Positions 19,386-44,343 of a stretch of 44,343 nt of DNA are shown piece by piece. Source of the DNA: Clostridiales bacterium (GTDB taxonomy: Bacteria; Bacillota; Clostridia; Christensenellales; Borkfalkiaceae); assembly GCA_015055735.1 (NCBI GenBank), contig SVHP01000001.1:74506-118848 (forward strand). Direction: 5' to 3'. How positions within the stretch are numbered: position 1 is the stretch's first letter; every line of letters begins with the position of its first letter. The position numbers were made by a program, and so were the translations under genes. The notes below the pieces were generated by a model that did no database searches, had not been told where the DNA came from, and worked only from the letters and a program-made list of their open reading frames with translations.

Positions 19386-19416
19386 ATATCGAAAAAATTT
19401 ATTAGGAGAAATATTT

Positions 19417-20403
19417 ATGATTGAATGTAAAGATTTAGTCTGCAAAAAACCTTTAACCGAATTAGACGTAGAATTTTATAAAAAACTGCGAAAAACAAAC
19501 TCTTTAGATGTAGCAAAATGTAGAAAATGTATGCTAAACGCATCAATGGAAGAAGCCATACGTAGAAAAGAACACGTAAAAAAATATTCTCGTTACTATC
19601 TTTTTCCCTTATTACTTTTTGCACTTATTATAGTTGAAATTCTTCTTATTAATGCTGAAAACATCTCGTTAGAAAGCACAAGTATAACGTTAGAAGAAAT
19701 TACACTGTTAATTCTCATCGTCATTGTGTCTATTGCATTATTTATAGCAGTCATACGTTTAATAATTATAAGTTTTGCATCAATTCCCCTATTAAGAAAG
19801 TATGTGTTTATGGGTAAAAGTGAACAAATAGGTTCACACTATGAAGCAAATATACATTATGATGGACTCAATTATATCGCTAAAACAAAAGAAGTAAAAG
19901 ATTACTCTCCAAGTGGACTGGGGATATCTATATTAGCAGGCATTACGTTTGGATACTGGTCAGTATTGTATTGGTTATTTTGCTTTGCTAGATATTACGT
20001 TTTATGCCCTAAAGATGTAAGAGATGCTTATACTCAAGCTAAAAAGTCTGTTGATGATGCTACTATTCATTTAAAATATATCCTTAAATTTGATAAGAAT
20101 GAAAATTTATTTAACATTCATAAAAAAACAACTTCTTACAAATACTCTTATCTTGAAAAGCAAGAATTTAATGACAAACTTGATGCAATTACAAAAAGAC
20201 GAACTTTTATTAAAGTGGCTGGTAAAAAGGCGCTTTTAATGTCAACTAATAACAATGTTTCAACTGTAATACTAAAAGAAAACGGCGAGATTATTATGAG
20301 AAGAATAATAGATAATTCTTTCATATATCAAGAAAACATAACTTTACATAGTTTAGGAATTCCAGCAAACATCATTGAAGAATTAAAAAAACAATTAAAG
20401 TAA
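19417..20403 (+). CDS. Uncharacterised membrane protein with N-terminal cysteine pairs
   Basis: A 329-residue protein of a family I do not recognise. The frame is open from 19291, but the ATG at 19417 has AGGAG eight bases upstream and lies after the RNA terminator, so it is used here. The N-terminus holds C4, C9 and a CRKC pair (C35, C38), possibly a metal site. Two hydrophobic stretches follow (about 60-80 and 93-125). A soluble beta-rich-looking segment, then a third hydrophobic region (about 170-195, GITFGYWSVLYWLFCFARYY), lead to a charged C-terminal domain of about 130 residues. The likely layout is a membrane anchor with cytoplasmic ends. It could be read through from the 6S-like RNA promoter. 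Confidence 0.7.
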   Translation: MIECKDLVCKKPLTELDVEFYKKLRKTNSLDVAKCRKCMLNASMEEAIRRKEHVKKYSRYYLFPLLLFALIIVEILLINAENISLESTSITLEEITLLILIVIVSIALFIAVIRLIIISFASIPLLRKYVFMGKSEQIGSHYEANIHYDGLNYIAKTKEVKDYSPSGLGISILAGITFGYWSVLYWLFCFARYYVLCPKDVRDAYTQAKKSVDDATIHLKYILKFDKNENLFNIHKKTTSYKYSYLEKQEFNDKLDAITKRRTFIKVAGKKALLMSTNNNVSTVILKENGEIIMRRIIDNSFIYQENITLHSLGIPANIIEELKKQLK

Positions 20404-24508: not shown

Positions 24509-24519
24509 ATCCGTTCTCC

Positions 24520-26406
24520 TTATTGCTTTGAAATTGCTTTGAATTTACAAGATGCTATACACATACCGCACTTAATACATTTTTGCGTATCGATTGTACG
24601 TGATGGAAGTTTATGACCTGCTGGCGTATAATCGGTCTTTAGAATTGCGTTAACAGGGCAATGTTTTTCGCATAGTCCACAACCGATACATTTTTCTTTA
24701 TCGATAACGTATTCCATAAGGTTTTTACAAACGTGAGCAGGACATTTTTTGTCAACGATATGCGCAACGTATTCGTCTCTAAAATGTTTAAGAGTCGATA
24801 ATACAGGATTTGGCGCAGTTTGACCTAAGCCACAAAGCGAATTGCTTCTAATATTATTTGCAAGTTCTTCTAATTTATCAAGGTCTTCTAAAGTGCCCTT
24901 TCCTTCTGTAATTCTCGTTAAAATTTCAAGCATTCTCTTTGTACCAATTCTACAAGGAGTACACTTACCACAAGATTCGTCACAAATAAATTCCATATAG
25001 AATTTTGCAACGTCAACCATACAGTTATCTTCGTCCATAACGATAGCGCCGCCAGAACCCATCATTGAACCACGAGCAACCAAGTTGTCGTAATCGATAG
25101 GACAATCTAAGTCTTCTTTAGTTAAGCAACCACCTGATGGACCACCCGTTTGAATAGCCTTAAATTCTTTACCGTCAGGAATACCACCACCGATATCGTA
25201 AATAAGTTCACGAAGCGTTGTACCCATAGGAATTTCAACAAGACCTACATTATTGATTTTTCCACCTAATGCAAAAACTTTAGTACCCTTGCTCTTTTCA
25301 GTACCGTTAGTAGCAAATTTTGAAGCGCCTTCTCTTAAAATATAAGGGATACAAGCAAGCGTTTCAACGTTGTTAATAATAGTAGGTTTTTGCCACAAGC
25401 CCTTAACTGCTGGGAATGGTGGACGTGGACGAGGCATACCACGTTGACCTTCTATTGAGTTTAGAAGTGCAGTTTCTTCACCGCAAACGAAAGCGCCTGC
25501 GCCTAAACGAACATGTACTCTAAACGAGAAATTAGTGCCTAAAATATTATCGCCAAGCAAGCCGATTTCTTCTGCCTTTTTGATAGCGAGTTTAAGCCTG
25601 TTAACTGCGATAGGATATTCAGCACGAACGTAGAAATAACCGTTTTGCGCGCCGATTGCATAACCTGCAATCATCATACCTTCGATAACGCCGAGTGGGT
25701 TACCTTCTAGGATAGATCTATCCATGAATGCACCTGGGTCCCCTTCGTCACCATTACATACTACGTATTTTTCACCATCTGGTTGAGCGTAAGCAAATTG
25801 CCATTTTCTACCCGTTGGGAAGCCTGCGCCACCACGGCCACGAATACCAGAATCTAAAACTTCTTTAATAACGTCTGCTCTATCCATAGAAAGTGCTTTT
25901 GCCAAACCTTGGAAAGCGCCTGCGCCTATACTTTCATCAATATTTTCAGGGTCTAAACTTCCACAGCCGTGAAGAGCGATTCTAACCTGCTTTTTATAGA
26001 AAGTAATATCGTCTTGTTTAGTAACCTTACTTAAAGTGTTAGGGTCTACGTATAAAAGTCTTTCAACCGTTTCCCCACCGATAAGGTCCTTTTCAACTAT
26101 TTCCTTAACGTCTGAAATTTGAACCATACGATAAAGAGTATCTTCTGGATAAATCTTTACGAAAGGACCTTGAGAACAGAAACCAAAACAACCTACTTGA
26201 TTGATAGTTGCCTTATCTTCTAGGTTGTATTCTTTAATCAACTTATTGAATTCTTCTAAAATTTCAGCTGAATTTGAAGATAAACAACCCGTACCACCAC
26301 ATAAAACTAAATGTCTTTTTCCATCTGCGCCAGTAAACTTAACGTCTAAACATTTTGCGCAATCATGAGAATACTTTTTTAATTGTTCAACGTTTTTAAT
26401 AACCAT
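24520..26406 (-). CDS. hydB: Bifurcating hydrogenase flavoprotein subunit HydB (NuoF-like)
   Basis: NADH- and FMN-binding subunit of the HydABC complex; 628 residues. A thioredoxin-like [2Fe-2S] domain with C36, C41, C73 and C77 comes first. A NuoF-like core follows with the FMN/NADH loop GIRGRGGAGFPTGRKW and the GAGAFVCGEETALLNSIEG block. The [4Fe-4S] site is ESCGKCTPCRIG, and two C-terminal ferredoxin clusters are CIGCGLCEKHC and CIKCGMCIASC. This extended form (NuoF plus extra clusters) is the hallmark of bifurcating hydrogenases and related formate dehydrogenases, not of complex I. It lies 5 bases after hydC. Confidence 0.96.
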   Translation of the reverse strand: MVIKNVEQLKKYSHDCAKCLDVKFTGADGKRHLVLCGGTGCLSSNSAEILEEFNKLIKEYNLEDKATINQVGCFGFCSQGPFVKIYPEDTLYRMVQISDVKEIVEKDLIGGETVERLLYVDPNTLSKVTKQDDITFYKKQVRIALHGCGSLDPENIDESIGAGAFQGLAKALSMDRADVIKEVLDSGIRGRGGAGFPTGRKWQFAYAQPDGEKYVVCNGDEGDPGAFMDRSILEGNPLGVIEGMMIAGYAIGAQNGYFYVRAEYPIAVNRLKLAIKKAEEIGLLGDNILGTNFSFRVHVRLGAGAFVCGEETALLNSIEGQRGMPRPRPPFPAVKGLWQKPTIINNVETLACIPYILREGASKFATNGTEKSKGTKVFALGGKINNVGLVEIPMGTTLRELIYDIGGGIPDGKEFKAIQTGGPSGGCLTKEDLDCPIDYDNLVARGSMMGSGGAIVMDEDNCMVDVAKFYMEFICDESCGKCTPCRIGTKRMLEILTRITEGKGTLEDLDKLEELANNIRSNSLCGLGQTAPNPVLSTLKHFRDEYVAHIVDKKCPAHVCKNLMEYVIDKEKCIGCGLCEKHCPVNAILKTDYTPAGHKLPSRTIDTQKCIKCGMCIASCKFKAISKQ

Positions 26407-26411
26407 AAGTC

Positions 26412-26894
26412 TTAAACCCCCATAGCCCTGTATTCTTCTACGATTTTACCAATTGCATCAACTGAAACTTTTGGATAAACCTTACCGTTAATAGTAACGG
26501 CTGGAGCAATACCACAAGCACCGATACAACGCAACGCGTCTAGCGTAAACATACCGTCTTCTGTCGTTTCGCCAGGTTTAATACCTAAAATTTCAGAAAA
26601 CTTATCGATTACTTGTTGTGCGCCTTTTACATAACAAGCAGTTCCTAAACAACAACCGATTACGTATTTTCCCTTTGGTTTCAAAGAGAAGAATGAATAA
26701 AAGGTTACTACGCCGTAAATATCGGCAACCGAAACACCCGTTCTATCAGAAACTATTTCTTGTACATCTAGTGGAATATAACCATATTCTTTTTGAATGT
26801 CAGAAAGAATCATCATAAGTGGGGTAGGTTGGTCGATATACCTGTCGCAAATTTCGTTGATCTTTGCAACTGCTAAATCACTTAAATGAGCCAT
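26412..26894 (-). CDS. hydC: Bifurcating hydrogenase subunit HydC (NuoE-like)
   Basis: Thioredoxin-fold [2Fe-2S] subunit, 160 residues, homologous to NuoE. A helical N-terminus (LMMILSDIQKEYGYIP) precedes the family block GVVTFYSFF. The cluster cysteines lie in CCLGTACYVKGA and ALRCIGACGIAP. GGGAGG precedes the ATG. It is the first gene of hydCBA and sits under a full-consensus promoter with an internal palindrome. Confidence 0.95.
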   Translation of the reverse strand: MAHLSDLAVAKINEICDRYIDQPTPLMMILSDIQKEYGYIPLDVQEIVSDRTGVSVADIYGVVTFYSFFSLKPKGKYVIGCCLGTACYVKGAQQVIDKFSEILGIKPGETTEDGMFTLDALRCIGACGIAPAVTINGKVYPKVSVDAIGKIVEEYRAMGV

Positions 26895-26954
26895 TTTTTT
26901 GCCTCCCTAATACTGTAATTTATAATAAAAATTTTTTATTTTTACCAAATATAT

Positions 26955-26983
26955 ATTATATATCAATCAGTCTTGATTGTCAA
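26955..26983 (-). promoter_or_regulatory. Promoter of hydCBA with palindrome in the spacer
   Basis: Minus strand TTGACA (26983-26978), 17-base spacer, TATAAT (26960-26955), all consensus. The spacer contains a perfect inverted repeat, CAATCA-GTCT-TGATTG (26964-26979), also overlapping the -35. It is well placed for a repressor. It does not match the Rex operator (TTGTTAANNNNTTAACAA-like) closely. Confidence 0.75.
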
Positions 26984-27044
26984 TACAAAAAGTCGTTTTT
27001 TTGTTTTTATGCTTAGATATTTTATGTAACTATAAAATTTAGCA

Positions 27045-28430
27045 TTATTTTCCGTTAATCATATCGTCGATTGCTTTGGCGGCAGTTTTACCTGCGCCCA
27101 TTGCTAAAATAACGGTTGCAGCGCCGGTAACTGCGTCGCCACCTGCATAAACTGCTTGAACTGAAGTTGCACCGTTTTCATCGGTAATAATACCACCGTG
27201 CTTATTAACTTCAAGACCTTCAGTAGTAGATTTGATAAGTGGGTTTGGAGAAGTACCAAGCGCCATAATAACTACGTCTGCTTCGATATCGAAATCGCTA
27301 CCTTCAACGGCAACAGGACGACGACGACCTGATGCATCAGGCTCGCCAAGTTCCATCTTAATACAAGTACAAGAACTTACCCAACCATTTTCATCACCGT
27401 TAATTTTAACAGGATTTGTCAATAGGTCAAAGATAATTCCTTCTTCCATAGCGTGTTCAACTTCTTCTTTTCTTGCAGGAAGTTCGTCTAAAGTTCTTCT
27501 ATAAACGATATGAACGTCGCCACCCAAACGCTTAGCGCATCTAGCAGCGTCCATAGCAACGTTTCCGCCGCCAACTACAACTACTTTTGTTCCACGCTTA
27601 ATTGGGGTTGAAGCATTTTCCTTATACGCTTTCATTAAGTTAATTCTAGTTAAGAATTCGTTTGCTGAATATACGCCGTTCAAGTTTTCACCAGGGATAT
27701 TCATAAACTTAGGAAGACCTGCGCCCGAGCCAACGAACACTGCCTTAAAGCCGTATTCAGCGATAAGTTCGTCAATAGAAACGACTTTACCGATAACCAT
27801 ATTGGTTTCAATCTTAACGCCCAAGTCTTTTAAGGTATCAATTTCCTTTTGAACGATACTCTTTGGAAGTCTAAATTCAGGGATACCGTAAACCAAAACG
27901 CCACCTGCTAAGTGGAAAGCTTCAAACACGGTCACTTCATAGCCTTTCTTTGCTAAATCCCCTGCGCAAGTTAAACCCGATGGACCAGAACCAACTACGG
28001 CAACTTTAATGCCGTTAGATTGTGGTTTAACAGGCTTTTCTTTGCAGTTAGCATTGTGATAATCGGCAACAAATCTTTCTAATCTACCGATAGCAACAGG
28101 TTCGCCCTTAATACCACGGATACAATACTTTTCGCATTGAGATTCTTGTGGACAAACACGACCACAAACTGCAGGAAGAGATGAAGATTCAGAAATGATT
28201 TGGTAGGCTTCTTCAAAAGCGCCTTCTTTAACCTTTGCGATAAACTCAGGGATATGTACCATAACAGGACAACCACCTACGCAAGGTTTATTCTTACAGT
28301 TTAAGCATCTTTCAGCTTCGTCCATTGCTTGTTCAGGCGTATACCCTAAAGCAACTTCATCAAAGTTTTTATTTCTAACGTCTGCCTCTTGATGTGGCAT
28401 AGGATTTTTCTTTAACGACATATTAGGCAT
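27045..28430 (-). CDS. nfnB: NfnB, NADPH-binding subunit of bifurcating transhydrogenase
   Basis: Large subunit of NADH-dependent reduced ferredoxin:NADP+ oxidoreductase; 461 residues, like the glutamate synthase small subunit family. The N-terminal double [4Fe-4S] domain reads CLNCKNKPCVGGC and VCGRVCPQESQCEKYC. The first dinucleotide fold is VAVVGSGPSGLTCAGDLAK (b-FAD), the second VVVGGGNVAMDAARCAKR (NADPH). The neighbouring nfnA, 2 bases upstream, makes Nfn far more likely than glutamate synthase; no GltB-like large subunit is present. The ribosome site lies inside the end of nfnA. Nfn balances NADH, NADPH and ferredoxin pools, complementing HydABC. Confidence 0.92.
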   Translation of the reverse strand: MPNMSLKKNPMPHQEADVRNKNFDEVALGYTPEQAMDEAERCLNCKNKPCVGGCPVMVHIPEFIAKVKEGAFEEAYQIISESSSLPAVCGRVCPQESQCEKYCIRGIKGEPVAIGRLERFVADYHNANCKEKPVKPQSNGIKVAVVGSGPSGLTCAGDLAKKGYEVTVFEAFHLAGGVLVYGIPEFRLPKSIVQKEIDTLKDLGVKIETNMVIGKVVSIDELIAEYGFKAVFVGSGAGLPKFMNIPGENLNGVYSANEFLTRINLMKAYKENASTPIKRGTKVVVVGGGNVAMDAARCAKRLGGDVHIVYRRTLDELPARKEEVEHAMEEGIIFDLLTNPVKINGDENGWVSSCTCIKMELGEPDASGRRRPVAVEGSDFDIEADVVIMALGTSPNPLIKSTTEGLEVNKHGGIITDENGATSVQAVYAGGDAVTGAATVILAMGAGKTAAKAIDDMINGK

Positions 28431-28432
28431 AA

Positions 28433-29275
28433 TTATTTAACCTCCTTTTTGAAAAGGTTGCAAGTTTCTTCGTACTTGTGTCTTTCCCATTCTTTATAAC
28501 TAGCACCACGTTTCATAGCCTCGTCAAAATCAACCAAGTGACCGTCGAATTCAGGGCCGTCAACGCACGCGAATTTAGTTTCGCCACCGACGCTTAAACG
28601 ACAACCACCACACATACCCGTTCCGTCTATCATGATAGGGTTCATACTAACGATGGTCTTTACATTGTATTCCTTTGTAAGTCTACAAACGAATTTCATC
28701 ATAATAACAGGTCCGATTGCAATAACTTCGTCGTAGTTTTCGCCACTTTCAATAAGGTTTTTAAGAGCGTCGGTAACAAGCCCTTTAGTTCCAGCCGTTC
28801 CATCGTCGCTCATCAAAACGTATTTATCACTAACAGATCTGAATTCGTCTTCTAGAATAACCAAGTCTTTACATCTAAAACCTACGATAGAATGAACTTC
28901 ACAGCCTTGTTCGTGAAGTTTTTTAGCAACAGGGTAAGCAATAGCGCAACCAACGCCACCGCCAACTACTGCGACCTTTTTAAGACCTTCGGTATGCGTT
29001 GCATTACCTAATGGACCAACGAAGTCAGCAACGCTATCCCCAACTTCTAATTGGTTAAGCGTATAAGTAGTAGCGCCAACGATTTGGAAAATAACGGCAA
29101 CAGTGCCCTTTTCTCTATCGTAATCAGCGACGGTTAGTGGAATTCTTTCGCCATCTTCAGTTGCTCTAATGATAACGAATTGACCAGCTTCAGCCTTTTT
29201 TGCAACGTAAGGCGCATAGACGTCAATTCTAGTTACCGTTGGGTTTAGAACTTTTTTGTCAACAATTTTGAACAT
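28433..29275 (-). CDS. nfnA: NfnA, NADH-binding subunit of bifurcating transhydrogenase
   Basis: Small subunit of NfnAB, 280 residues, related to the dihydroorotate dehydrogenase electron-transfer subunit. A beta-barrel FAD domain with RIPLTVADYD comes first. A Rossmann NAD(H) domain with VAVVGGGVGCAIAYPVAK follows, then a C-terminal [2Fe-2S] site in GMCGGCRLSVGGETKFACVDGPEF. The frame extends 19 codons upstream, but the ATG at 29275 has AAGGAG seven bases before it and begins the conserved MFKIVDKKVLNP, so it is used. A leader hairpin and a promoter lie upstream. Confidence 0.93.
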   Translation of the reverse strand: MFKIVDKKVLNPTVTRIDVYAPYVAKKAEAGQFVIIRATEDGERIPLTVADYDREKGTVAVIFQIVGATTYTLNQLEVGDSVADFVGPLGNATHTEGLKKVAVVGGGVGCAIAYPVAKKLHEQGCEVHSIVGFRCKDLVILEDEFRSVSDKYVLMSDDGTAGTKGLVTDALKNLIESGENYDEVIAIGPVIMMKFVCRLTKEYNVKTIVSMNPIMIDGTGMCGGCRLSVGGETKFACVDGPEFDGHLVDFDEAMKRGASYKEWERHKYEETCNLFKKEVK

Positions 29276-29297
29276 ATTATCTCCTTTTATGATAATA

Positions 29298-29325
29298 GGC
29301 TGTTTGGGTTTATTTCGAAACAGCC
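29298..29325 (-). promoter_or_regulatory. Hairpin in the nfnAB leader
   Basis: GGCTGTTT and AAACAGCC (29298-29305 with 29318-29325) form an 8-bp stem in the transcribed leader, about 20 bases before the nfnA ribosome site. No T run follows on the minus strand, so it is not an obvious terminator. It may affect message stability or act in read-through control. Confidence 0.4.
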
Positions 29326-29352
29326 GATGCAATATATTTAAATACTAAATAT

Positions 29353-35544: not shown

Positions 35545-36975
35545 ATGAGAAAATTTGACACCAAAGTTCAACATTTAAAATATAAAGTTTTAAGAGAAGT
35601 TGCTAGATTTGCTTGGCAAGGTACATTACAAGAAAACCTTTTAAGTATCCCAAAAATAACCGTTCCTGGCAAAGAGCCAACCATGCGTTGCTGTATTTAT
35701 AAAGAACAAGCAATCGTCACCGAACGTGTTAAATTAGCAATGGGTGGAGATAAAGATAATAAAAACGTCATTGAAGTTATCAACATCGCATGCGACGAGT
35801 GTCCTATGGGTGGTTATGAAGTAACCGATGCTTGCCGTGGCTGTTTAGCCCACCGTTGCGAAGACGCTTGCAAAAAAGGTGCGATTACCATTGACCATAA
35901 TCAAAAGGCTCACATTGATAAAAACAAATGCGTTGAATGTGGACTTTGCGCAAAAGTTTGTCCATACAGTGCGATTATCAACCACAAACGCCCTTGCGAA
36001 AAGGCGTGCAAAATCAACGCTATCACTATGGACGATGATAAATCGGCAAAAATTAACGACGAAAAATGCGTTTCTTGTGGCGCATGCGTTTATCAATGTC
36101 CTTGGGGCGCAATAAACGATAAGTCTTTTATTCTCGACGTTATCGACTTGATAAAAAACAGTAAGAACAATACCGAATATAAAGTTTACGCCGTAATTGC
36201 ACCTAGTATTGCTAGCCAATTCGTATATGCAAAACTCGGTCAAGTTTTAACGGGCATAAAAGAGTTAGGCTTTTTCGCCATTGAAGAAGCGGCGCTCGGC
36301 GCTGACATCGTTGCGCTTGCCGAAGCTAAAGAGTTGGTCGAAAAAGGGTTTTTAACAAGTTCGTGTTGTCCTGCTTTTGTTTCTTACGTTAAAAAGCAGT
36401 TCCCTGACCTTTCGGAATACGTTTCACACAACCTATCGCCTATGGCAACTATCGCTAAAAGTATAAAAGAAAAAGAGCCTAATGCAAAGGTCGTTTTCAT
36501 AGGACCTTGCACGGCAAAGAAAATGGAATTTCAACAAGAAAGCGTTTCCCCTTACGTTGATACCGTTATTACATTTGAAGAATTGCAAGCGCTTTTCGAT
36601 AGTAAAGATATAGAAATTGAAAAATTAGAAGAGCAATCTATTGACAGTGCGTCGTACTATGGTAGAATTTTCGGGCGTAGTTGTGGATTATCCGAAGCCG
36701 TTGCGGAAGGCATTAAAGAGCGTGGTCTTGAAGGTTTTGACCTAAAAGCAGTACCTTGCGACGGACTTGATGCGTGTAAAGTTGCGCTACTTAAAGCCAC
36801 AAAACGTATACTTGACGGAAACTTCATCGAAGGTATGGCTTGTGTTGGTGGTTGTATAGGTGGCGCAGGGTGTTTAACACACGGCGATATCAATAAATTA
36901 AAACTTGATAAACACGGTAAACTTTCAGTACACGAACAAATTACAAACGCTGTACAAAATTATCAAGATAAATAA
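35545..36975 (+). CDS. Monomeric [FeFe]-hydrogenase, group-B-like
   Basis: A 476-residue iron-only hydrogenase distinct from HydA. Ferredoxin-like Cys motifs occupy the N-terminal half: CDECP (83-87), CRGCLAHRCEDAC (97-109), CVECGLCAKVC (129-139), CEKAC (151-155) and CVSCGACVYQC (175-185). H-cluster motifs are L1 TSSCCPAF (271-278), L2 GPCTAKKME (320-328) and L3 MACVGGC (431-437). The CCP form of L1 and lack of an N-terminal [2Fe-2S] domain are typical of group B enzymes, which are less studied and thought to use ferredoxin. It could work in hydrogen evolution, uptake or sensing. It sits directly behind a LysR gene, probably co-transcribed, and ends at a strong terminator. Confidence 0.9.
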   Translation: MRKFDTKVQHLKYKVLREVARFAWQGTLQENLLSIPKITVPGKEPTMRCCIYKEQAIVTERVKLAMGGDKDNKNVIEVINIACDECPMGGYEVTDACRGCLAHRCEDACKKGAITIDHNQKAHIDKNKCVECGLCAKVCPYSAIINHKRPCEKACKINAITMDDDKSAKINDEKCVSCGACVYQCPWGAINDKSFILDVIDLIKNSKNNTEYKVYAVIAPSIASQFVYAKLGQVLTGIKELGFFAIEEAALGADIVALAEAKELVEKGFLTSSCCPAFVSYVKKQFPDLSEYVSHNLSPMATIAKSIKEKEPNAKVVFIGPCTAKKMEFQQESVSPYVDTVITFEELQALFDSKDIEIEKLEEQSIDSASYYGRIFGRSCGLSEAVAEGIKERGLEGFDLKAVPCDGLDACKVALLKATKRILDGNFIEGMACVGGCIGGAGCLTHGDINKLKLDKHGKLSVHEQITNAVQNYQDK

Positions 36976-36992
36976 ATACCTATATAAAAAAT

Positions 36993-37027
36993 AAGGCGTA
37001 GCGATAACAAGTATCGCTACGCCTTTT
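36993..37027. terminator. Terminator between the hydrogenase and the AAE transporter
   Basis: AAGGCGTAGCGATA (36993-37006) pairs perfectly with TATCGCTACGCCTT (37012-37025), followed by TTTT on the plus strand. The plus-strand run is strongest, but an A/T-rich flank also allows use by the convergent gene ending at 37041. Confidence 0.88.
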
Positions 37028-37040
37028 ATTTGCCGTTTAA

Positions 37041-38402
37041 TCACATCAATAAATTTATAAGTAAATTACAAGAAATAACAATTAAAACTAGCGCGATAGG
37101 ATAAGTTGAAGCGTAAGCGCCTGCAACGTCATCCGTTTTAGCGGTTGAAATCAAAGTTCCAAGTGCAGGGGTACTCGTCATACCACCAGTGATTGAACCA
37201 AGGTTGCTAAGAAGTGGTAATTTAAGTAAATATTTACCAAGGAAGAAACCTATTATCATAGGTATTATAGTCATAAGTGCGCCACCGACAAATCCCCAAG
37301 CAACGATACCAACGTCGCCACCGATTGCTGAAACTAGGCTTACACCACCATCAACACCTGCGCCGATTAAGAATAACATAAGTCCTAATTCTTTTAAGGT
37401 CTTAATAGTTGATTCAGGAATTTGTAAAGATAATTTACCGATTTTACCAAAGTGACCGAAGATCAAGCACATAATCAAAACGCCACCGGTAGTACCAAGC
37501 GAGAAGTTGATACCATTGAATAGTGGAATTTTAATTCCACCTAAAATCAAACCGCATACGATTGCAAGAGCAAGTGGTGTAAAACCAAAATCATCACAAA
37601 CGAACAAAGGCTTTTCTTGTTTTTGTGTGCGTTCTTCTAAAATTTCAGGTTTAAGCAAGCCTCTTTCGTAAGCCATATCTGCCTTAACGAATTTAGGAAG
37701 AAGTTGAACGAATAAAACTACGCCAACAACACCGAAAGGATAAGCAATTGCGTGACCGATAGTTACGTAGGTATCAGAATTTGGTCCAAACTTTTCAAAC
37801 ATAGCTTCTTGCGCTGCTGAATAACCAGGAGTGGTTGTGAGCGCGCCAGACAAGATACCTGACCAAAAATCCGAACCATATGGTGAAATGAAAGTAAATA
37901 GAACAGCAAGAGCAGTACCTATTAAAATTATAACGATACCCATCAAAATATAGGTTTTGAAATTTTTCTTTAAATCTCTAAAGAATTTAGGGCCTGCGAT
38001 AAAGCCAACTGAACCAACGAATAAAACTAAACCAACATTTTGAATAACGCTTTTATAGAAAGTAGTATTACCCTTTCCTGCTTCTAGACGAAGAGCGCTT
38101 ATAACAGGCAAATCGCTAGGTATTAAAGTGCAAAGATAACCAAATAAAATTGCAACAAGGAATACGCCAGCAGTACCCAAATTAACACCCTTAATAGTAA
38201 TTCTACCAAGCAAATAACCTAAAGCAGTGACAACGAATAGACCTGTTAAAAGAGCAGGCAAACTAAAAACGCTAACGTTTGTTACACCATTCTTTTCGGT
38301 AATTTTTGCATTAACCCCACACCATACGCCTACAGCAGCAACAGCAATGAGAGCAATAATGACCCAAAGCCATTTAAGGCTTTTCTTTTTTTGATTTTCC
38401 AT
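37041..38402 (-). CDS. Aspartate:alanine exchanger (AAE) family transporter
   Basis: A 453-residue membrane protein with about eleven hydrophobic segments and the two repeated family motifs GALTTTPGYSAAQE (near 180) and GGMTSTPALGTLIS (near 415). These are characteristic of the AspT/YidE/YbjL permease domain. Members include the aspartate:alanine antiporter AspT and the succinate exporter SucE1 of Corynebacterium. The central loop (about 235-265) is short and charged and lacks the TrkA-C domains of AspT, explaining the smaller size. The gene follows the frdA-like gene by 91 bases with only a weak hairpin between, so it may belong to that operon. A C4-dicarboxylate or amino-acid substrate is inferred from context. 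Confidence 0.85.
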   Translation of the reverse strand: MENQKKKSLKWLWVIIALIAVAAVGVWCGVNAKITEKNGVTNVSVFSLPALLTGLFVVTALGYLLGRITIKGVNLGTAGVFLVAILFGYLCTLIPSDLPVISALRLEAGKGNTTFYKSVIQNVGLVLFVGSVGFIAGPKFFRDLKKNFKTYILMGIVIILIGTALAVLFTFISPYGSDFWSGILSGALTTTPGYSAAQEAMFEKFGPNSDTYVTIGHAIAYPFGVVGVVLFVQLLPKFVKADMAYERGLLKPEILEERTQKQEKPLFVCDDFGFTPLALAIVCGLILGGIKIPLFNGINFSLGTTGGVLIMCLIFGHFGKIGKLSLQIPESTIKTLKELGLMLFLIGAGVDGGVSLVSAIGGDVGIVAWGFVGGALMTIIPMIIGFFLGKYLLKLPLLSNLGSITGGMTSTPALGTLISTAKTDDVAGAYASTYPIALVLIVISCNLLINLLM

Positions 38403-38466: not shown

Positions 38467-38486
38467 GCCCGACCAAAAGGTCGGGC
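38467..38486 (-). other. Hairpin between the frdA-like gene and the transporter
   Basis: GCCCGACC (38467-38474) pairs perfectly with GGTCGGGC (38479-38486) around a 4-base loop, 8 bases after the frdA-like stop. On the minus strand the T run starts only after ATTAGGC, so it is at best a leaky terminator or a 3'-end stabiliser that still allows expression of the transporter. Confidence 0.55.
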
Positions 38487-38493
38487 TATTACT

Positions 38494-40104
38494 TTAAATT
38501 GATGGTTGTTTGGTGTAGTTAGGAAGAAGTTGTGGAGAAAGTTTAGTTGGGTTTAATCCAGCGTCTTTCAATTCCTTATCAAAGTTCTTAACGTGATCTA
38601 AGGTTAGATCTTTAACTACAACGTCTTTATAAATCTTACCAACACTCTTACCAGCGTTTCTACCGAATACGATGATATCAAGTAAGCTGTTACCCATAAG
38701 TCTATTTCTACCGTGAATACCCCCAACGGCTTCGCCGGCAACGAATAGGTTTGGAACGGTCGTACTCATACCGTCAGCACTAATATCTAAACCACCGTTT
38801 TGATAGTGTAAGGTTGGATAGATAAGAATAGGATCTTTTCTAATATCGATACCGTATTTACCGAACATACGAAGCATAGCAGGAATTCTCTTTTCGATAG
38901 TGCCTTCGCCGTGAATGATATCGATCATAGGAGTATCTAGCCATACGCCTTCGCCATCGGTAGTTTTGATACCGTTATTTCTTTGTTTACATTCTCTAAT
39001 GATAGAAGAAGCAGTTACGTCACGAGTTTCAAGTGAGTAAACGAATGCTTCACCGTCTTTATTAACTAATTGAGCGCCTAAAGATCTAACCTTTTCGGTA
39101 ACTAGAGCACCGAAAATTTGGGTAGGTTCAGCAACGCCGGTTGGGTGATATTGAAGGGTATCAGCATAAAGAAGTTTTGCACCTGCTCTATAACCTAAAA
39201 CCAAACCGTCAGCCGTTGCGCCGTAGTGGTTAGAAGTTGGGAATCCTTGATAGTGAAGTCTTCCTGCGCCACCCGTTGCGATAATAACGGTCTTAGCCTT
39301 TGCAACGTAGATATCTTTAGTTTCCATATTCATTAAGATAGCGCCGGCAGCCTTGCCTTCGGTATCTTTAATAATTTCAATAGCAGAAGTGAAATCTACT
39401 ACAGGAATACCACGGTTTAACACTTCGTCACGAAGAGTTCTCATGATTTCAGCGCCTGAATAGTCTTTACAAGCGTGCATTCTCTTTCTAGAAGTACCAC
39501 CACCGTGAGTAGTAATCATAGTACCGTCAGCTTCTTTATCGAACATAACGCCTAAATCGTTAAGCCATCTAATAGCGTCTGGTGCTTCGGTAACGAGTTT
39601 ATATAAAAGTTCGTGTTTAGCAGCAAAGTGACCACCACCAAAAGCGTCTAGATAGTGAGTTGCAGGTGAATCGTTTGGTTTATCAGCTGCTTGGATTCCA
39701 CCTTCAGCCATCATGGTATTAGCATCGCCTATACGAAGTTTAGTAACCATCATAACTTTTGCGCCTGCATTATCAGCTTCGATAGCAGCAGAAGAACCTG
39801 CGCCACCACCACCGATAACTAAAACGTCAACGTCATAGTCAGGCTTAGATAGGTCGATATCCATATCTAAAACTCTAGATTTACCTTGTAAAAGGTCAGC
39901 GAGTTCGTGAAGAACTTTTCCACCCTTATTTGGGCCAACTTTTAATAATTCGTAAGCAGACTCGATATAGTCAGGGTGATTTTCTTGTAAAACCTTTTGC
40001 TTTTCGTCAGCACTCATTCTTGCGAATAAATTTTGAAGTCTTTTTTCTCTGCTTGCTTCAACCTTTTTCATTGAAGTAAGTTGTTCGTTAGTATAGTTAT
40101 ACAT
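38494..40104 (-). CDS. Soluble fumarate reductase-like flavoprotein subunit
   Basis: A 536-residue flavoprotein of the FrdA/SdhA/NadB family. The FAD dinucleotide motif VIGGGGAGSSAA starts near residue 96, after an unusual ~90-residue helical N-terminal extension. Residues matching the fumarate/succinate active site are all present: H320 (HPTG), R340 (EKVRSLG, the proton-shuttle arginine), H433 (HYQNGG) and R468 (HGRNRLMGNS). The covalent-FAD histidine position (SHT in FrdA) is N129 (ANTMMAEGG), so FAD should be non-covalent, as in NadB and soluble fumarate reductases. No signal peptide or membrane anchor. It ends an HdrA-MvhD-Flx-FrdB operon, 12 bases after its Fe-S partner. A fumarate or related 2-enoate acceptor is likely; aspartate oxidase activity is less likely given the partners. 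Confidence 0.85.
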   Translation of the reverse strand: MYNYTNEQLTSMKKVEASREKRLQNLFARMSADEKQKVLQENHPDYIESAYELLKVGPNKGGKVLHELADLLQGKSRVLDMDIDLSKPDYDVDVLVIGGGGAGSSAAIEADNAGAKVMMVTKLRIGDANTMMAEGGIQAADKPNDSPATHYLDAFGGGHFAAKHELLYKLVTEAPDAIRWLNDLGVMFDKEADGTMITTHGGGTSRKRMHACKDYSGAEIMRTLRDEVLNRGIPVVDFTSAIEIIKDTEGKAAGAILMNMETKDIYVAKAKTVIIATGGAGRLHYQGFPTSNHYGATADGLVLGYRAGAKLLYADTLQYHPTGVAEPTQIFGALVTEKVRSLGAQLVNKDGEAFVYSLETRDVTASSIIRECKQRNNGIKTTDGEGVWLDTPMIDIIHGEGTIEKRIPAMLRMFGKYGIDIRKDPILIYPTLHYQNGGLDISADGMSTTVPNLFVAGEAVGGIHGRNRLMGNSLLDIIVFGRNAGKSVGKIYKDVVVKDLTLDHVKNFDKELKDAGLNPTKLSPQLLPNYTKQPSI

Positions 40105-40116
40105 TTTTAATCCCCC

Positions 40117-40791
40117 TTACTTTTCAATATCTCTATTGTTATAGAGTTCTTTAAGTTCTTCAATAGGCTTATTCATAAGGGTTTCAATAATTTCCTTATA
40201 AACGCCCTCGTCAATTTCCTTAACCCTATCTAAAACGTGTTTAGATTCAGGTGCTAAGTATTTACCGTAAATTCTTCTTGCTAGTTCAGCAACTTGTGGG
40301 TGAGAAATACCTGCTGGGCAACGAGAAGAACAAACGCCACACATTACGCAGTCAAAAGATTCTTCAGCGCACTTAGCGAAATCGCCCCTTTGTGCGTATG
40401 CGATGTATTGCATAACGTTAAGACTTTGCGTACAAGCCTTAGTACAAGCGTTACAGCCGATACAAGCGTAAATTTCTGGATAAAGTTGCATCATAACCAT
40501 TTCCGAAGTTTTAACAGTTTCGATATCGTAAACTTGTTTAACTAGTGGGAAGAAAGGAAGGGTTGCAACGTACATATCGTTTTCAACTTTAGTTTGGCAA
40601 GCCAAACAAGCGTGAAGTTCTCTATCGCCCTTGATACGATAAATAGTTGAACAAGCACCACAGAATCCGTTTCTACAACCACAGCCACGAACTAATTGAT
40701 AGCCGGCGTATTCCATTGCCTTCATAATGGTTAAACTTTCAGGTACTTGGTATTTTTTACCGAAAAAATAAACATTAACTAAATTTTCCAT
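40117..40791 (-). CDS. Fumarate reductase-like/HdrC-like iron-sulfur subunit
   Basis: A 224-residue electron-transfer protein. The N-terminal [2Fe-2S] plant-type domain has C39, C44, C47 and C62 (GCRNGFCGAC, then HACLAC). The C-terminal alpha-helical domain has two complete four-cysteine sites: CIGCNACTKAC (110-120) and CVMCGVCSSRC (148-158). Classic FrdB/SdhB carries a [3Fe-4S] as third cluster. Two full [4Fe-4S] sites are closer to HdrC and the N-terminal half of TfrB. The HdrB-like CCG domain of TfrB is absent. Probably wires the Flx/HdrA module to the flavoprotein encoded 12 bases downstream. AAGGAG precedes the ATG. Confidence 0.85.
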   Translation of the reverse strand: MENLVNVYFFGKKYQVPESLTIMKAMEYAGYQLVRGCGCRNGFCGACSTIYRIKGDRELHACLACQTKVENDMYVATLPFFPLVKQVYDIETVKTSEMVMMQLYPEIYACIGCNACTKACTQSLNVMQYIAYAQRGDFAKCAEESFDCVMCGVCSSRCPAGISHPQVAELARRIYGKYLAPESKHVLDRVKEIDEGVYKEIIETLMNKPIEELKELYNNRDIEK

Positions 40792-40806
40792 TTGTTTTTC
40801 TCCTTA

Positions 40807-41640
40807 TTAATACTCATCAGGTAAAGCGTCTAATTGGTCCATTCTGAACACAGGTCCGTCTTTACAAACGTATTTTGAACCTACGTTACAACGACCGCAC
40901 TTGCCTATACCACATTTCATTCTTAATTCTAACGTCGTAAATACTTGCTTTTTATCAAAACCTAGTTCACTTAAACCTTGAAGGGTAAACTTAATCATGA
41001 TAGGTGGACCACATAAAACAGCAGTCTTATTTGGTTCAAAACCAAGTTCTTTTACGTAGTTAGGAACAAATCCAACGTGACCGTCCCAACCTTCTTGTTC
41101 TCTATCGATTGTCAAGTGAACGTTTACGGTTGGATCGTTTTTCCATTCGTCTATGATTTCTTGGTAGAAAACTAAATCGTCTTTACTTCTAGAACCGTAA
41201 ACGATGTCAACCTTGCCGTAATTTGCTCTGTTATCTCTAACGTAATTGATAACCGAACGAACAGGCGCTAAACCGATACCACCTGCGATAAAGAGCATAT
41301 CTTGTCCCTTAAATTCGGTTTCAACAGGGAATCCGTTTCCGTAAGGTCCACGAACGGTTATTTGTTGACCTACTTCGGCAGCGTGAATCCAACTGGTCAC
41401 ACAACCGCATTTTTTAATAGAAAATTCAACGTATTTGGTATTTGTTGGTGAAGAAGTGATTGAGAATAAGGCTTCGCCAACACCTGGCATAGAAAGCATT
41501 GCGCATTGACCAGGTTTGTGTATAAATGGTTTTTTACCGTCTAACGTTAAAACTCTAAAAGTTTTTACGTCAGGAGTATCTTGTCTAATATCGGTTATTT
41601 GACACACGGTAGGTATCAAAGGCTCTTTTATATTATCCAT
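40807..41640 (-). CDS. flxA: FlxA-like NAD(P)H-binding flavoprotein subunit
   Basis: A 277-residue FAD/NAD(P)H oxidoreductase of the FNR/AsrB/hydrogenase-gamma type. The FAD barrel contains FSITSSPT, and the pyridine-nucleotide fold reads FIAGGIGLAPVRSVI. A C-terminal [2Fe-2S] site has C243, C248, C251 and C259 (CGIGKCGRC). In Desulfovibrio such FlxA subunits feed NADH electrons through FlxBCD to HdrABC. Its ATG overlaps the preceding stop by 8 bases (ATGGATAA), implying translational coupling. The NADH versus NADPH preference cannot be told by eye. Confidence 0.88.
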   Translation of the reverse strand: MDNIKEPLIPTVCQITDIRQDTPDVKTFRVLTLDGKKPFIHKPGQCAMLSMPGVGEALFSITSSPTNTKYVEFSIKKCGCVTSWIHAAEVGQQITVRGPYGNGFPVETEFKGQDMLFIAGGIGLAPVRSVINYVRDNRANYGKVDIVYGSRSKDDLVFYQEIIDEWKNDPTVNVHLTIDREQEGWDGHVGFVPNYVKELGFEPNKTAVLCGPPIMIKFTLQGLSELGFDKKQVFTTLELRMKCGIGKCGRCNVGSKYVCKDGPVFRMDQLDALPDEY

Positions 41641-42661
41641 TGTTCTTTCCTCCTAACGTTTTCATTACTTTTACTATATTCATTGAGATTGGGCATTTAG
41701 AAACGCATCTTCCACAACCTACGCAACTGAACATACCGTCGTTGTTAGTTGGGAAATATACGAGTTTATGCATAAATCTTTGACGGAATCTTTCCATTTG
41801 GGTTACTCTTGGTTGACCTGCGCTCATCTTAGTAAAGTCTGAGTACATGCAAGAGTCCCAACAACGGAATCTTTCTACGCCGTTATTCGTCTTAAAATCT
41901 TTAATGTCGTAACATTGACAGGTTGGGCAAACGAAAGTACAAGTTCCACAACCTAGACACGATTCAGAAAGATTTTTCCACTCAGGGCTATTGAAATATT
42001 CATCCGTCTTATCCTTACCAAAAGCGTCTGCTTTTAGGTCTTTTAGTGGAAGTTTATTTAATATTTCTTTAATTTTAGCCTTTTCAGCATTCACAACGCT
42101 ATCGTCGCAATCTTGCACGAGGTCACCCATTTGGTCGATAACTTTCTCACCCTTTTCGGTTTTAGCGTCAAAGTAGAAAGCGTCGTCAGTCTTATAGCAA
42201 ACGATATCGCCTTCAGGTTGACTTGCGTCTATGCCGAAAGTTTGGCAGAAACAAGTTTCAACAGGACGAGAACAAGCCATCGATACGATAACGCCGTGTT
42301 CACGTCTATTTTTGTAATAAGTATCAACCGGTTCAGCTAAGAAAACTTTATCTAAAACTTCTAAGCTCTTAACGTCGCAAGCACGAACGCCGAAAACTAC
42401 GAAATCTTCATTTTCCGAACGAGTATCGATAACTTCAATGCTCTTACCTTGAGTCTTGAACGCCATCAAAGTTTCGGTTTGTGGGAAGAAAAAGTCTTTT
42501 GCGCTTCTATCAGTCTTTAACGCATCGCTCATTTTCAAGCCGTCTTGGAACTTTTTGTAAGCAACTCTGCCTTGTTCAAGATCAACAGGAATATATAAGG
42601 TATTGTTTTCAGCAATTTTATTAAAGAGAGCGTTTGAATTTGTTAATAAACATTTCTTCAT
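41633..42661 (-). CDS. FlxB-like (AsrA/hydrogenase-beta type) 4Fe-4S subunit
   Basis: A 342-residue Fe-S protein. The N-terminal ~220 residues form the domain shared by anaerobic sulfite reductase subunit A and sulfhydrogenase beta subunits, with VVFGVRACDVKSLEVLD and MACSRPVETCFCQTFG. The C-terminal part has two [4Fe-4S] sites, CLGCGTCTFVC (followed by PTCQC) and CVGCGRCVSKC. AsrA/HydB-type proteins pair with AsrB/FlxA-type flavoproteins, and here the flxA-like gene overlaps its end. It starts one base after the preceding gene. I assign FlxB- or FlxC-like by composition of the operon, without deciding which. Confidence 0.8.
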   Translation of the reverse strand: MKKCLLTNSNALFNKIAENNTLYIPVDLEQGRVAYKKFQDGLKMSDALKTDRSAKDFFFPQTETLMAFKTQGKSIEVIDTRSENEDFVVFGVRACDVKSLEVLDKVFLAEPVDTYYKNRREHGVIVSMACSRPVETCFCQTFGIDASQPEGDIVCYKTDDAFYFDAKTEKGEKVIDQMGDLVQDCDDSVVNAEKAKIKEILNKLPLKDLKADAFGKDKTDEYFNSPEWKNLSESCLGCGTCTFVCPTCQCYDIKDFKTNNGVERFRCWDSCMYSDFTKMSAGQPRVTQMERFRQRFMHKLVYFPTNNDGMFSCVGCGRCVSKCPISMNIVKVMKTLGGKNNG

Positions 42662-42662
42662 A

Positions 42663-43652
42663 TTATTTGTCCCCCTTATTTACTGCATCGCCTGGTTCTA
42701 TATCTTCTTTAGTGTAGTTTACTAAAGGAGCACGGCTTCCAACTTCTTCACCCGCTTGGTAATCGCCATAGAAAGAGTTAATGTCTTTAATAAACTTTCT
42801 ATTCAATAAATGAAGTGGGATATTTTGTGGGCAAACTCTTGAACATTCGCCACAGTCGGTACAACGACCTGCAACGTGGAAAGCACGAATAATATGGAAC
42901 ATTTTTTCTTCAAAACTGTTTGCAGGAGATTTGTTTTCTACGCCCGAATTTGGGTTGTCGAACACGCACTTTTCACAAGTACATGCAGGACAAGCGTCAC
43001 GACAAGCGTTGCAACGAATACAACGTGAAAGTTCGTTTTGCCAGAAAGCAAATCTTTCATCAGCGCTCATTTTTTCAAGTTCAGCAACTTGGTCAAAACG
43101 ATTGCTATCAACAACGTCGCCTTCTTCGCCTAATAATTGGTCAAATGCAACGTGCTTTTTGCTCTTACAGTTTTTACATCTTTCTAATAGAACGTCAGCC
43201 TTAGCAATTTCTTTAACTCCGTCGTATAGAGTTTCAACCTTTAAGGTATTGCTATCAGTGTTGATAGACACTACGCCGTCGCCTAAAGCCATTTTAATTT
43301 TATTGATATCAACCATACCTTCGCAAGGAATACCTACTACGTAAACCTTTTCCCTATCGAAACGATGTTCGGTTAAAAGTTGGTTAAAACTGTAAGTATC
43401 GCAAGGTTTTAAGAAAGCTAAAACCTTACCGTCTTCTTTTCTAGTTTCTTTAACTAGATATTTAGAAAAGTTTGCGCCCGAAAAATCGTCGAACACGAAA
43501 CTATCTTTCATTTCTTGTACTGAAGTGAATATTGCAGGCGTTTGGTCGTATGAAAATTCACCTTTCTTCCAACCTAGAACACGAGTCACAGTTCCGTCAG
43601 CCAAGAGTTTTTCTGCTATTTCAATAAGATTATCACGAGTTATCTTTTGCAT
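42663..43652 (-). CDS. FlxC/FdhB-like 4Fe-4S subunit
   Basis: A 329-residue protein with an N-terminal region like the F420-hydrogenase/formate dehydrogenase beta family (VLAFLKPCDTYSFNQLL, VVGIPCEGMVD). A CKNCKSKKH motif lies near residue 160. Two further sites follow: CIRCNACRDACPACTCEKC and CTDCGECSRVC. This Cys-rich architecture fits one of the Fe-S subunits (FlxB or FlxC) that pass electrons from FlxA to the MvhD-like subunit. Its ATG lies inside the end of the mvhD gene (13-base overlap). The C-terminal ~45 residues are polar and acidic. Confidence 0.78.
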   Translation of the reverse strand: MQKITRDNLIEIAEKLLADGTVTRVLGWKKGEFSYDQTPAIFTSVQEMKDSFVFDDFSGANFSKYLVKETRKEDGKVLAFLKPCDTYSFNQLLTEHRFDREKVYVVGIPCEGMVDINKIKMALGDGVVSINTDSNTLKVETLYDGVKEIAKADVLLERCKNCKSKKHVAFDQLLGEEGDVVDSNRFDQVAELEKMSADERFAFWQNELSRCIRCNACRDACPACTCEKCVFDNPNSGVENKSPANSFEEKMFHIIRAFHVAGRCTDCGECSRVCPQNIPLHLLNRKFIKDINSFYGDYQAGEEVGSRAPLVNYTKEDIEPGDAVNKGDK

Positions 43653-44074
43653 CTTAAGTCCTCCAATCTCTTGTTTTCGCCAAGAGCAGTAACCGTTTGA
43701 ACGAAATCGTTCATGGTTGCAGCAAATTTAGCACCTTCAGCAGCCGAAACCCATTCAACACGAGTACGTTCTTTTTCTATTCCAAGATAATCTAACATAG
43801 AGAATAGTAAAGCCATTCTTCTTCTAGTGAAGTAGTTTCCTGAAGTGTAGTGGCAGTCGCCTGGGTGGCAACCACAAATGATAACCCCGTCAGCGCCACG
43901 TTGGAAAGCACGAAGAACGAACATAGGGTTAACACGACAAGAACAAGGCACTCTTATAACCTTAACTTCAGCAGGATAACTTAATCTGCTACCACCGGCA
44001 AGGTCTGCACCAGCGTAAGAACACCAGTTACAACAAAAAGCAACTATTTTTGGTTTAAATTCATTTACTTGCAT
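43640..44074 (-). CDS. mvhD: MvhD/FlxD-like hydrogenase iron-sulfur subunit
   Basis: A 144-residue [2Fe-2S] protein that docks on HdrA and delivers electrons to its bifurcating flavin. The conserved cysteines are C14, C15, C18 (FCCNWCSYAGAD), C44, C46 (VPCSCRVNP) and C67, C69, C74 (CGCHPGDCHY), followed by RRRMALL. This is the typical length and motif set for MvhD. The start overlaps the hdrA stop by 10 bases. Without HdrA this protein has no known role, so the pairing strongly supports an HdrA-based complex. Confidence 0.93.
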   Translation of the reverse strand: MQVNEFKPKIVAFCCNWCSYAGADLAGGSRLSYPAEVKVIRVPCSCRVNPMFVLRAFQRGADGVIICGCHPGDCHYTSGNYFTRRRMALLFSMLDYLGIEKERTRVEWVSAAEGAKFAATMNDFVQTVTALGENKRLEDLRCKR

Positions 44075-44343
44075 ATTGCGTCAACCTCCGCCATAATTTG
44101 TTTACTTGCAAAACCCTTAAGATCCATAGCGCCTGATGGACAAGCAACCGTACATGCGCCACAGCCTTGACATACCGCTTCGTTAACGGTTGCAACCCTA
44201 CGGATAAGCGTCGTTCTATTTGGACCTCTAAATTCTTTATCAGAATAAGAAATTGCACCGTAAGGACAAACTCTTTCACAACTTGAACAGCCGTTACACA
44301 TCAATTCGTCTGAATGAGCAACGCAAGGGTTACCTGTAAGTTT
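44065..44343 (-). CDS. hdrA: HdrA, C-terminal part (runs off window edge)
   Basis: The last 92 residues of a protein that continues beyond base 44343; the frame is open to the edge, so no start is visible here. Two [4Fe-4S] sites, CNGCSSCERVCPYGAI and CQGCGACTVACPSGAM, precede a final helix (FASKQIMAEVDAICK). This is the canonical C-terminal ferredoxin domain of HdrA, the flavin-containing electron-bifurcating subunit. The overlapping mvhD gene downstream confirms the assignment. Whether hdrBC lie upstream cannot be seen. Confidence 0.88.
   Translation of the reverse strand, partial: KLTGNPCVAHSDELMCNGCSSCERVCPYGAISYSDKEFRGPNRTTLIRRVATVNEAVCQGCGACTVACPSGAMDLKGFASKQIMAEVDAICK

Follow-up and report, generated by a model that had tools for sequence, protein, structure and literature searches.

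The window analysed here is a 44,343-nt stretch of a Clostridiales bacterium genome (bases 74,506-118,848 of contig C61, SVHP01000001.1), at the end of which genes of the FlxABCD-HdrABC type are joined to a fumarate reductase-like pair, frdB and frdA. Seven reading frames, all on the minus strand, are tightly packed, with spacings of -10, -13, 1, -8, 15 and 12 nt, and a transporter gene comes next. A previous interpretation of this DNA made from its letters (the sequence-only reading) had listed the same seven genes, and their positions, strand and gaps were reproduced when recomputed; the identities it had assigned (the HdrA end, MvhD/FlxD, the Fe-S subunits, FlxA, FrdB and FrdA) agree with the family searches. 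The genes are the following.

44065..44343, minus strand: end of hdrA, last 92 codons (4Fe-4S C-terminal part), the remainder being on contig C46
43640..44074, minus strand: flxD (mvhD/FlpD), 144 aa (PF02662, 183.4 bits)
42663..43652, minus strand: flxC, 4Fe-4S protein, 329 aa (4Fe-4S domains; constant operon position in relatives)
41633..42661, minus strand: flxB, sulfhydrogenase-beta/AsrA-like 4Fe-4S protein, 342 aa (Fer4_22)
40807..41640, minus strand: flxA, FAD/NAD(P)H-binding subunit, 277 aa (NAD_binding_1, FAD_binding_6, DHODB_Fe-S_bind)
40117..40791, minus strand: frdB, protein with [2Fe-2S] and two CX2CX2CX3C 4Fe-4S motifs, 224 aa (domain and motif matches)
38494..40104, minus strand: frdA, FAD flavoprotein (FAD_binding_2), 536 aa (family match, residues, fold match)
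37041..38402, minus strand: AspT/YidE/YbjL-family transporter (PF06826)

FlxB also matches NF040829 (185.7 bits, below the cut-off of 690) and PDB 9nez_B (4.2e-44), and the HdrA of a relative (L062) matches PDB 5odc_A (5.7e-204). Contig C61 stops at base 118,848, and since the window end coincides with the contig end, the absence of the upstream genes from the window reflects an assembly edge. In the host assembly, which is 76% complete, a genome-wide search located an HdrB-type protein on contig C46, where the first 597 codons of hdrA are followed by hdrC, hdrB, a class II fumarase gene (TIGR00979, 720 bits, cut-off 665) and then a divergent gene. The end of the window and the start of C46 overlap with 73 of 75 bases identical. 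The complete operon is thus fumC-hdrB-hdrC-hdrA-flxD-flxC-flxB-flxA-frdB-frdA-transporter. The sequence-only reading had proposed that the Frd pair replaces HdrBC. This has to be abandoned, because hdrBC is present on C46 and in 61/61 named loci with enough flank; that is, HdrBC is part of the operon. The same reading had opposed its proposal to an arrangement with hdrBC directly upstream and frdBA in an unrelated transcript; the first half of that arrangement is what we find, but the second is not, as frdBA shares the gene run. Its wider view, that a soluble Frd pair belongs to one operon with FlxABCD-HdrA, is borne out by an anchor-free pair and by a fumarase gene heading the operon.

The spread of the operon was followed with two peptide patterns of one gene, which matched at least 573 stretches (this is not a species count); the 80 named loci considered here are the best of these matches, hence close relatives. 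The order hdrB-hdrC-hdrA-flxD-flxC-flxB-flxA-frdB occurs in all 61 named loci with at least 7.9 kb upstream of frdB, with frdA next in every such gene order among the 80, and no violation of the order was seen among the 80. The co-occurrence of hdrA-mvhD-flxABC with frdBA, for which the sequence-only reading had recommended a search, therefore holds in 61/61 flanked named loci. The fumC gene is found in 58 of the 61 loci with at least 9.9 kb upstream of frdB, and an AspT-like transporter homolog in 47 of the 57 having downstream room. Similarly, the run from flxD to frdA is present in 19/19 sister loci, with hdrB upstream in 18 (the remaining locus, L080, starts within hdrA), while fumC was not found in three of the 19 (L062, L074 and L080). 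Such recurrence in the 19 sister loci and, contig permitting, in the 80 named loci means that the gene run is not due to chance. FrdA is encoded by all 27 FlpD-bearing genomes among 61 relatives, and by three further relatives (G008, G012 and G055) on cut contigs without an FlpD match. One relative (L070, G047) carries an in-frame TAG in frdA, reflecting error or decay, and its FrdA was excluded from one alignment owing to this internal TAG. In broader samples, which include the host genome, FrdB was detected at E 1e-15 in 54/391 genomes of the class (36/222 genera) and 39/398 genomes of the phylum. Furthermore, 20 of the 53 same-class matches besides our own locus and 33 of the 38 other-class matches were fetched. 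The full set is present in 18 of the 20 same-class loci (one loses the frdA end at a contig edge), and the other two are cut earlier. A rearranged order, frdBA-hdrBCA-flxDCBA, is found in L220 of the same class and in L242, L243, L248 and L281 of other classes.

All seven FlxABCD-HdrABC subunits are thus encoded by the operon, with two CCG motifs in HdrB and two 4Fe-4S motifs in HdrC. The FrdB motif set is kept in 143 of 146 distinct homologs; the other three lack the first Cys of CXCX4CX2C, which leaves the plant-type ligand set. Both FrdB cluster motifs are of the full 4Fe-4S type, and family and motif searches of FrdB gave no CCG domain (the structure model of FrdB is poor, with a mean pLDDT of 43.3). 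Both CCG motifs are intact in 109/109 distinct HdrB sequences (rows flagged for a stop were kept in this count; their alignments may extend past the start codon, and they are not shown to be broken), and the two HdrC motifs are kept in 107/107 distinct sequences. In the TfrB model, residues 19-99 are matched by FrdB and residues 262-487 of 488 by the HdrB of a relative, below cut-off, and the best NCBIfam match of the host HdrB, also below cut-off, is SdhE of a menaquinol:fumarate reductase. In the TfrB and SdhE systems an HdrB-like part is already known to be combined with an Frd pair. TfrAB proper was rejected as an identity for the pair here: FrdB has 224 aa and no HdrB-like half, and the scores are 330.9 bits against a cut-off of 718 for TfrA, the best NCBIfam match of FrdA, and 37.4 against 385 for TfrB.

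TfrB oxidises thiols, and the likeness raises an alternative in which a free disulfide serves as bifurcation acceptor for FlxABCD-HdrABC and the thiols so formed then reduce fumarate via FrdAB, in the manner of a thiol:fumarate reductase. The two CCG motifs of all 109 HdrB sequences and the TfrB model, which is matched by an FrdB-like and an HdrB-like part, would suit this, as would the available part of PMC7282089, which has Flx-Hdr delivering electrons to ferredoxin and thiols. FrdB, however, has no detected CCG domain, so that thiol oxidation of the TfrAB kind is not expected from FrdAB alone, and no thiol or disulfide carrier gene is seen in the operon. DsrC, one proposed disulfide partner of FlxABCD-HdrABC, is likewise found in 0/27 FlpD-bearing relatives; it occurs in one of the 61 relatives overall, which lacks the operon. 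A thiol-linked route therefore appears unlikely to us.

FrdA is a member of the fumarate reductase/succinate dehydrogenase flavoprotein superfamily. Residues were counted in 137 sequences from 153 loci that aligned over more than 480 residues without internal stop; five loci are present twice (as genome handle and as named record), leaving 132 distinct FrdA. With positions taken from SdhA alignments, H320, E337, R361, H433 and R468 are retained in 132/132 and T336 in 131/132, a His, Thr, Glu, Arg, His, Arg set that we take to be the dicarboxylate and proton-shuttle residues. At the position of the covalent-FAD His of complex II all 132 have an Asn (Asn129), although this residue alone does not separate the families, because both NadB sequences compared likewise lack that His. 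FrdA carries an N-terminal extension of ~88 aa, and no C-terminal domain was found in the family search. Its structure model (pLDDT 75.4, pTM 0.80) gives a fold match to complex II flavoproteins, which adds little beyond the sequence. An assignment of FrdA to NadB was rejected: it scores 262.4 bits against a cut-off of 452.75, and 133/137 sequences have His, not the NadB-type Glu, which is seen in both NadB sequences compared and presumably marks L-aspartate oxidase.

Distant gene contexts, in which ten proteins (of L240, L244, L249, L250, L256 and L257) were checked with Pfam and the other neighbours were named by eye, place fumarase alpha/beta and malic enzyme ahead of frdBA in L240, L241, L246 and L247, fumarase beta ahead of hdrC-hdrB-frdB-frdA in L250, succinyl-CoA ligase after frdBA in L244 and pyruvate carboxylase in L249. 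Together with fumC in the operon, these contexts also support a C4-dicarboxylate substrate, as the residues do. The superfamily is broad, and FrdA could in principle act on another 2-enoate (urocanate, crotonate, aconitate) or be an L-aspartate oxidase; divergent copies do lie by aconitase (L257) or transport genes (L259, by eye). With every C4-dicarboxylate residue retained, a fumarase heading the operon, a separate nadA-nadB-nadC cluster in the host genome (named by eye) and the His for Glu exchange, we regard this as highly improbable for the operon described here. The divergent copies themselves (L257, L259 and L271; 46-52% identity) may have a substrate other than fumarate, as their sequences and contexts suggest: L257 has aconitase (Pfam) and isocitrate dehydrogenase (by eye) genes, and both L257 and L259 have tricarboxylate-transport genes (by eye).

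Bifurcating enzymes are reversible, and the operon might alternatively serve a succinate dehydrogenase that passes the electrons of succinate and of reduced ferredoxin jointly to NAD+. Distant frdBA copies beside succinyl-CoA ligase (L244) or 2-oxoacid oxidoreductase genes (L251, by eye) would fit such use. The operon, however, has a fumarase and a carrier but no sucCD. Moreover, Asn stands in place of the FAD-linking His in 132/132 distinct FrdA, and when E. coli FrdA loses this His, the balance shifts from succinate oxidation towards fumarate reduction. The published operon comes from a succinate producer, according to the available part of PMC7282089. Operation in this reverse direction is thus very unlikely.

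The other-class loci are informative about the electron partner of FrdBA. Five of the 33 have a full hdrABC-flxABCD set. Six others (L251, L255, L270 and L275-L277) combine hdrCBA with extra HdrA-like and MvhD genes into a larger Hdr arrangement of another kind; L276 is truncated ahead of hdrCB, and long HdrA-like frames of 1058 aa and 1489 aa occur in L251 and L255, respectively. Five more (L245, L250, L252, L279 and L273, the last cut after frdB), all from two families, have an hdrC-hdrB-frdB-frdA unit without nearby hdrA, and these units suggest that HdrBC may be the immediate partner of FrdBA. In L256 and L258, frdBA lies near apparent multihaem cytochrome genes (by eye), an arrangement that suggests yet another electron partner. 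In a tree of 61 FrdA sequences, from which L235 and L273 were left out, partner type changes six times; with a small sample, and with partner type read from limited flanks, these changes are only suggestive. HdrA occurs somewhere in 14 of the 16 other-class genomes checked, and flxABCD-hdrABC was found in 10/10 of those fetched from these 14, all of them FrdBA-bearing (two of the ten runs are cut by a contig end, before flxA or inside flxB). Four of the ten belong to the five genomes with hdrC-hdrB-frdB-frdA units and have flxABCD-hdrABC elsewhere (L305-L308; L308 is cut inside flxB). In the other six (L299-L304, one cut before flxA), frdBA has no clear Hdr gene next to it and flxABCD-hdrABC lies elsewhere, which shows that the linkage of frdBA with Hdr genes is not obligatory. 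These six would be expected if the operon held two independent enzymes that are co-regulated only, namely an ordinary FlxABCD-HdrABC and an FrdAB fed by ferredoxin or flavodoxin. Against this, the DsrC search made no disulfide partner evident, and in the hdrC-hdrB-frdB-frdA units it is HdrBC that is joined to FrdBA, not HdrA or Flx. Two separate enzymes consequently strike us as quite improbable.

A membrane quinol:fumarate reductase or complex II was also rejected: there is no anchor gene in the run, no UbiA found in the host genome, Asn at the FAD-linking position in 132/132 FrdA and no 3Fe-4S motif in FrdB. The absence of an anchor gene concerns the operon run, no search having been aimed at anchor families elsewhere in the genome. 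The quinone prenyltransferase UbiA gave no match over cut-off in the 27 FlpD-bearing relatives (the control was found in 14/14 genomes; G006 has a single 18-bit UbiA match, below cut-off) and was not found in the 76% complete host genome. The host group, which is gut-dwelling, seems to be without quinones. As for ferredoxin, the host genome encodes RnfD (family match) and rnfG, E, A and B (by eye). RnfD is present in 23 of the 27 FlpD-bearing relatives and in 51 of the 61 relatives overall, thus also in most of those without the operon. PEPCK_ATP, sought as an oxaloacetate source, was not found in the host genome and occurs in one of 37 same-genus genomes (the host included).

Taken together, we consider it likely that the operon encodes a putative electron-bifurcating, soluble NADH:fumarate/ferredoxin oxidoreductase. 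From gene content, gene order, cofactor motifs, catalytic residues and contexts we infer a single complex, bifurcation, the direction of the reaction, a transfer from HdrB to FrdB, and NADH rather than NADPH as donor. FlxABC would accept electrons from NADH and FlxD would hand them to the HdrA flavin, which would split the pair. One electron would pass via the C-terminal clusters of HdrA to ferredoxin, and the other via HdrC, the two CCG clusters of HdrB and the FrdB clusters to the FAD of FrdA, which would reduce fumarate to succinate. Fumarase would provide the fumarate, the AspT-like carrier may transport succinate or a different C4 acid, and Rnf or a [FeFe] hydrogenase would consume the reduced ferredoxin. 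A broader view, which we put forward tentatively and with somewhat more doubt than conviction, is that HdrB and HdrC act as a disulfide-free electron wire, that HdrBC with FrdBA forms a movable cassette by which HdrA-type bifurcating machines use fumarate in place of a disulfide, and that this is a common quinone-independent fumarate respiration of gut Clostridia. The readings weighed here are not mutually exclusive, since the thiol-linked alternative shares most of the preferred one.

Several observations weigh against an NADH:fumarate/ferredoxin oxidoreductase of this kind. The join between C61 and C46 is based on a 75-base overlap carrying two mismatches, and the host genome is 76% complete, so that its absences are weak evidence. 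The intact CCG motifs of HdrB would also fit a true disulfide substrate. In addition, 17 of the 33 other-class frdBA loci lack a clear Hdr neighbour (weak HdrC-like matches occur in four of them), a count that is partly unseen in four loci because contigs end nearby (the contig starts 1.4-2.5 kb before frdB in L271, L272 and L274, and ends ~2.9 kb after frdB in L240), and two of the 16 other-class genomes have no HdrA at E 1e-60; FrdBA can therefore serve other partners. Finally, among the papers listed in the literature searches, which covered few subscription journals, none reports a purified complex as judged by title and abstract opening.

Two further features lie past the transporter gene.

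36993..37025, no strand: 14-pair hairpin, flanked on either side by T-rich sequence (hairpin/terminator scan)
35545..36975, plus strand: monomeric [FeFe] hydrogenase of group B1 (TIGR04105, 562.7 bits, cut-off 450), a neighbour and not a member of the operon

The AspT-family transporter is possibly a C4-dicarboxylate exporter or exchanger. The 14-pair hairpin could terminate transcription in both directions, from the operon and from the hydrogenase gene that faces it, a weak reading, as the region has seven terminator-like sites versus 5.4 in shuffled sequences. A perfect 8-pair GC-rich hairpin at 38467-38486, directly past frdA and ahead of the transporter gene, may reduce expression of the transporter or shield the end of the message. 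A promoter scan of the region gave nothing exceeding shuffled sequences. The group B1 hydrogenase, of which a homolog (29-83% identity) occurs in 16 of the 80 named loci, is a possible sink for the ferredoxin formed. At 22739-29332 on the minus strand, ~16 kb or less from the operon, the window also has genes for other enzymes of ferredoxin and NAD(P)H: a [FeFe] hydrogenase of the NADH-dependent group A6 (844.5 bits, cut-off 765), its NuoF- and NuoE-like partners and an adjoining NfnAB-like pair. Elsewhere, a 370-aa frame with a TTG start (19291-20403) lies between Hsp90 and Hsp20 genes and has no Pfam match at 0.001.

Ferredoxin has an E0' of -420 mV. With E0' values of -320 mV for NADH and +33 mV for fumarate (PMC5861303), the reaction of two NADH with one fumarate and two ferredoxins would release ~49 kJ per mole (computed from E0' values). 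If the proposed reaction takes place, a quinone-less cell would conserve energy from fumarate, the NADH-to-fumarate drop paying for reduced ferredoxin, which Rnf can convert into an ion gradient. About half of the 80 named loci have a ruminant gut site in the record title, so the operon bears on the origin of succinate and hydrogen there. The range of arrangements found in nature, from the full set through extra HdrA or hdrBC only to none, makes the question of HdrB-to-FrdB transfer testable.

Like TfrAB and the SdhE-type succinate:quinone oxidoreductases reportedly described by Hamann in 2009, the operon combines an Frd/Sdh pair with an HdrB-like CCG protein or domain. Unlike in these systems, HdrB is here a separate gene within a bifurcating module, and the cut-offs for TfrA, TfrB and SdhE are not reached. 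Compared with FlxABCD-HdrABC, the NADH dehydrogenase/heterodisulfide reductase reportedly described by Ramos in 2015, all seven subunits are common, and the Frd pair and fumarase are extra, with no DsrC found in the FlpD-bearing relatives. The sequence-only reading did not recall a characterised complex with this subunit set; the operon has, however, been published (PMC7282089), and a comparable grouping appears in PMC6315080, as the available parts of both papers show. In the latter, Thioflavicoccus and tubeworm symbionts have tfrAB scattered among flxABCD-hdrABC and korABCD genes, and one complex is suggested. The mixing of fumarate reductase genes with flxABCD-hdrABC is thus shared with these sulfur bacteria, but as far as that part goes theirs is TfrAB in a reverse tricarboxylic acid (TCA) cycle cluster, whereas here FrdB lacks the HdrB half and the operon lacks korABCD. 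A close counterpart is the 'succinate operon' of Pseudoclostridium thermosuccinogenes, whose type of Flx-Hdr-Frd gene set and order is present in the host genome; it is a known kind of operon, and a widespread one. The available part of PMC7282089 lists a fumarate hydratase, the Flx-Hdr complex RS03360-30, the fumarate reductase RS03325-20 and a possible succinate transporter, and takes the reduction of fumarate to be coupled to that of ferredoxin, with reference to a 2019 preprint of Koendjbiharie and van Kranenburg; expression rose ~4-fold under CO2 limitation, not significantly for every subunit, in a host that produces succinate. The mechanism favoured here is therefore likely, yet already proposed in print for another bacterium, and the present analysis contributes the complete operon of this genome, a view of how far it has spread, counts of residues and motifs, and the alternative arrangements. 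The gene layout is alike in the two operons, as compared by published locus-tag order only, whereas the transporter here belongs to the AspT family and theirs is called hypothetical.

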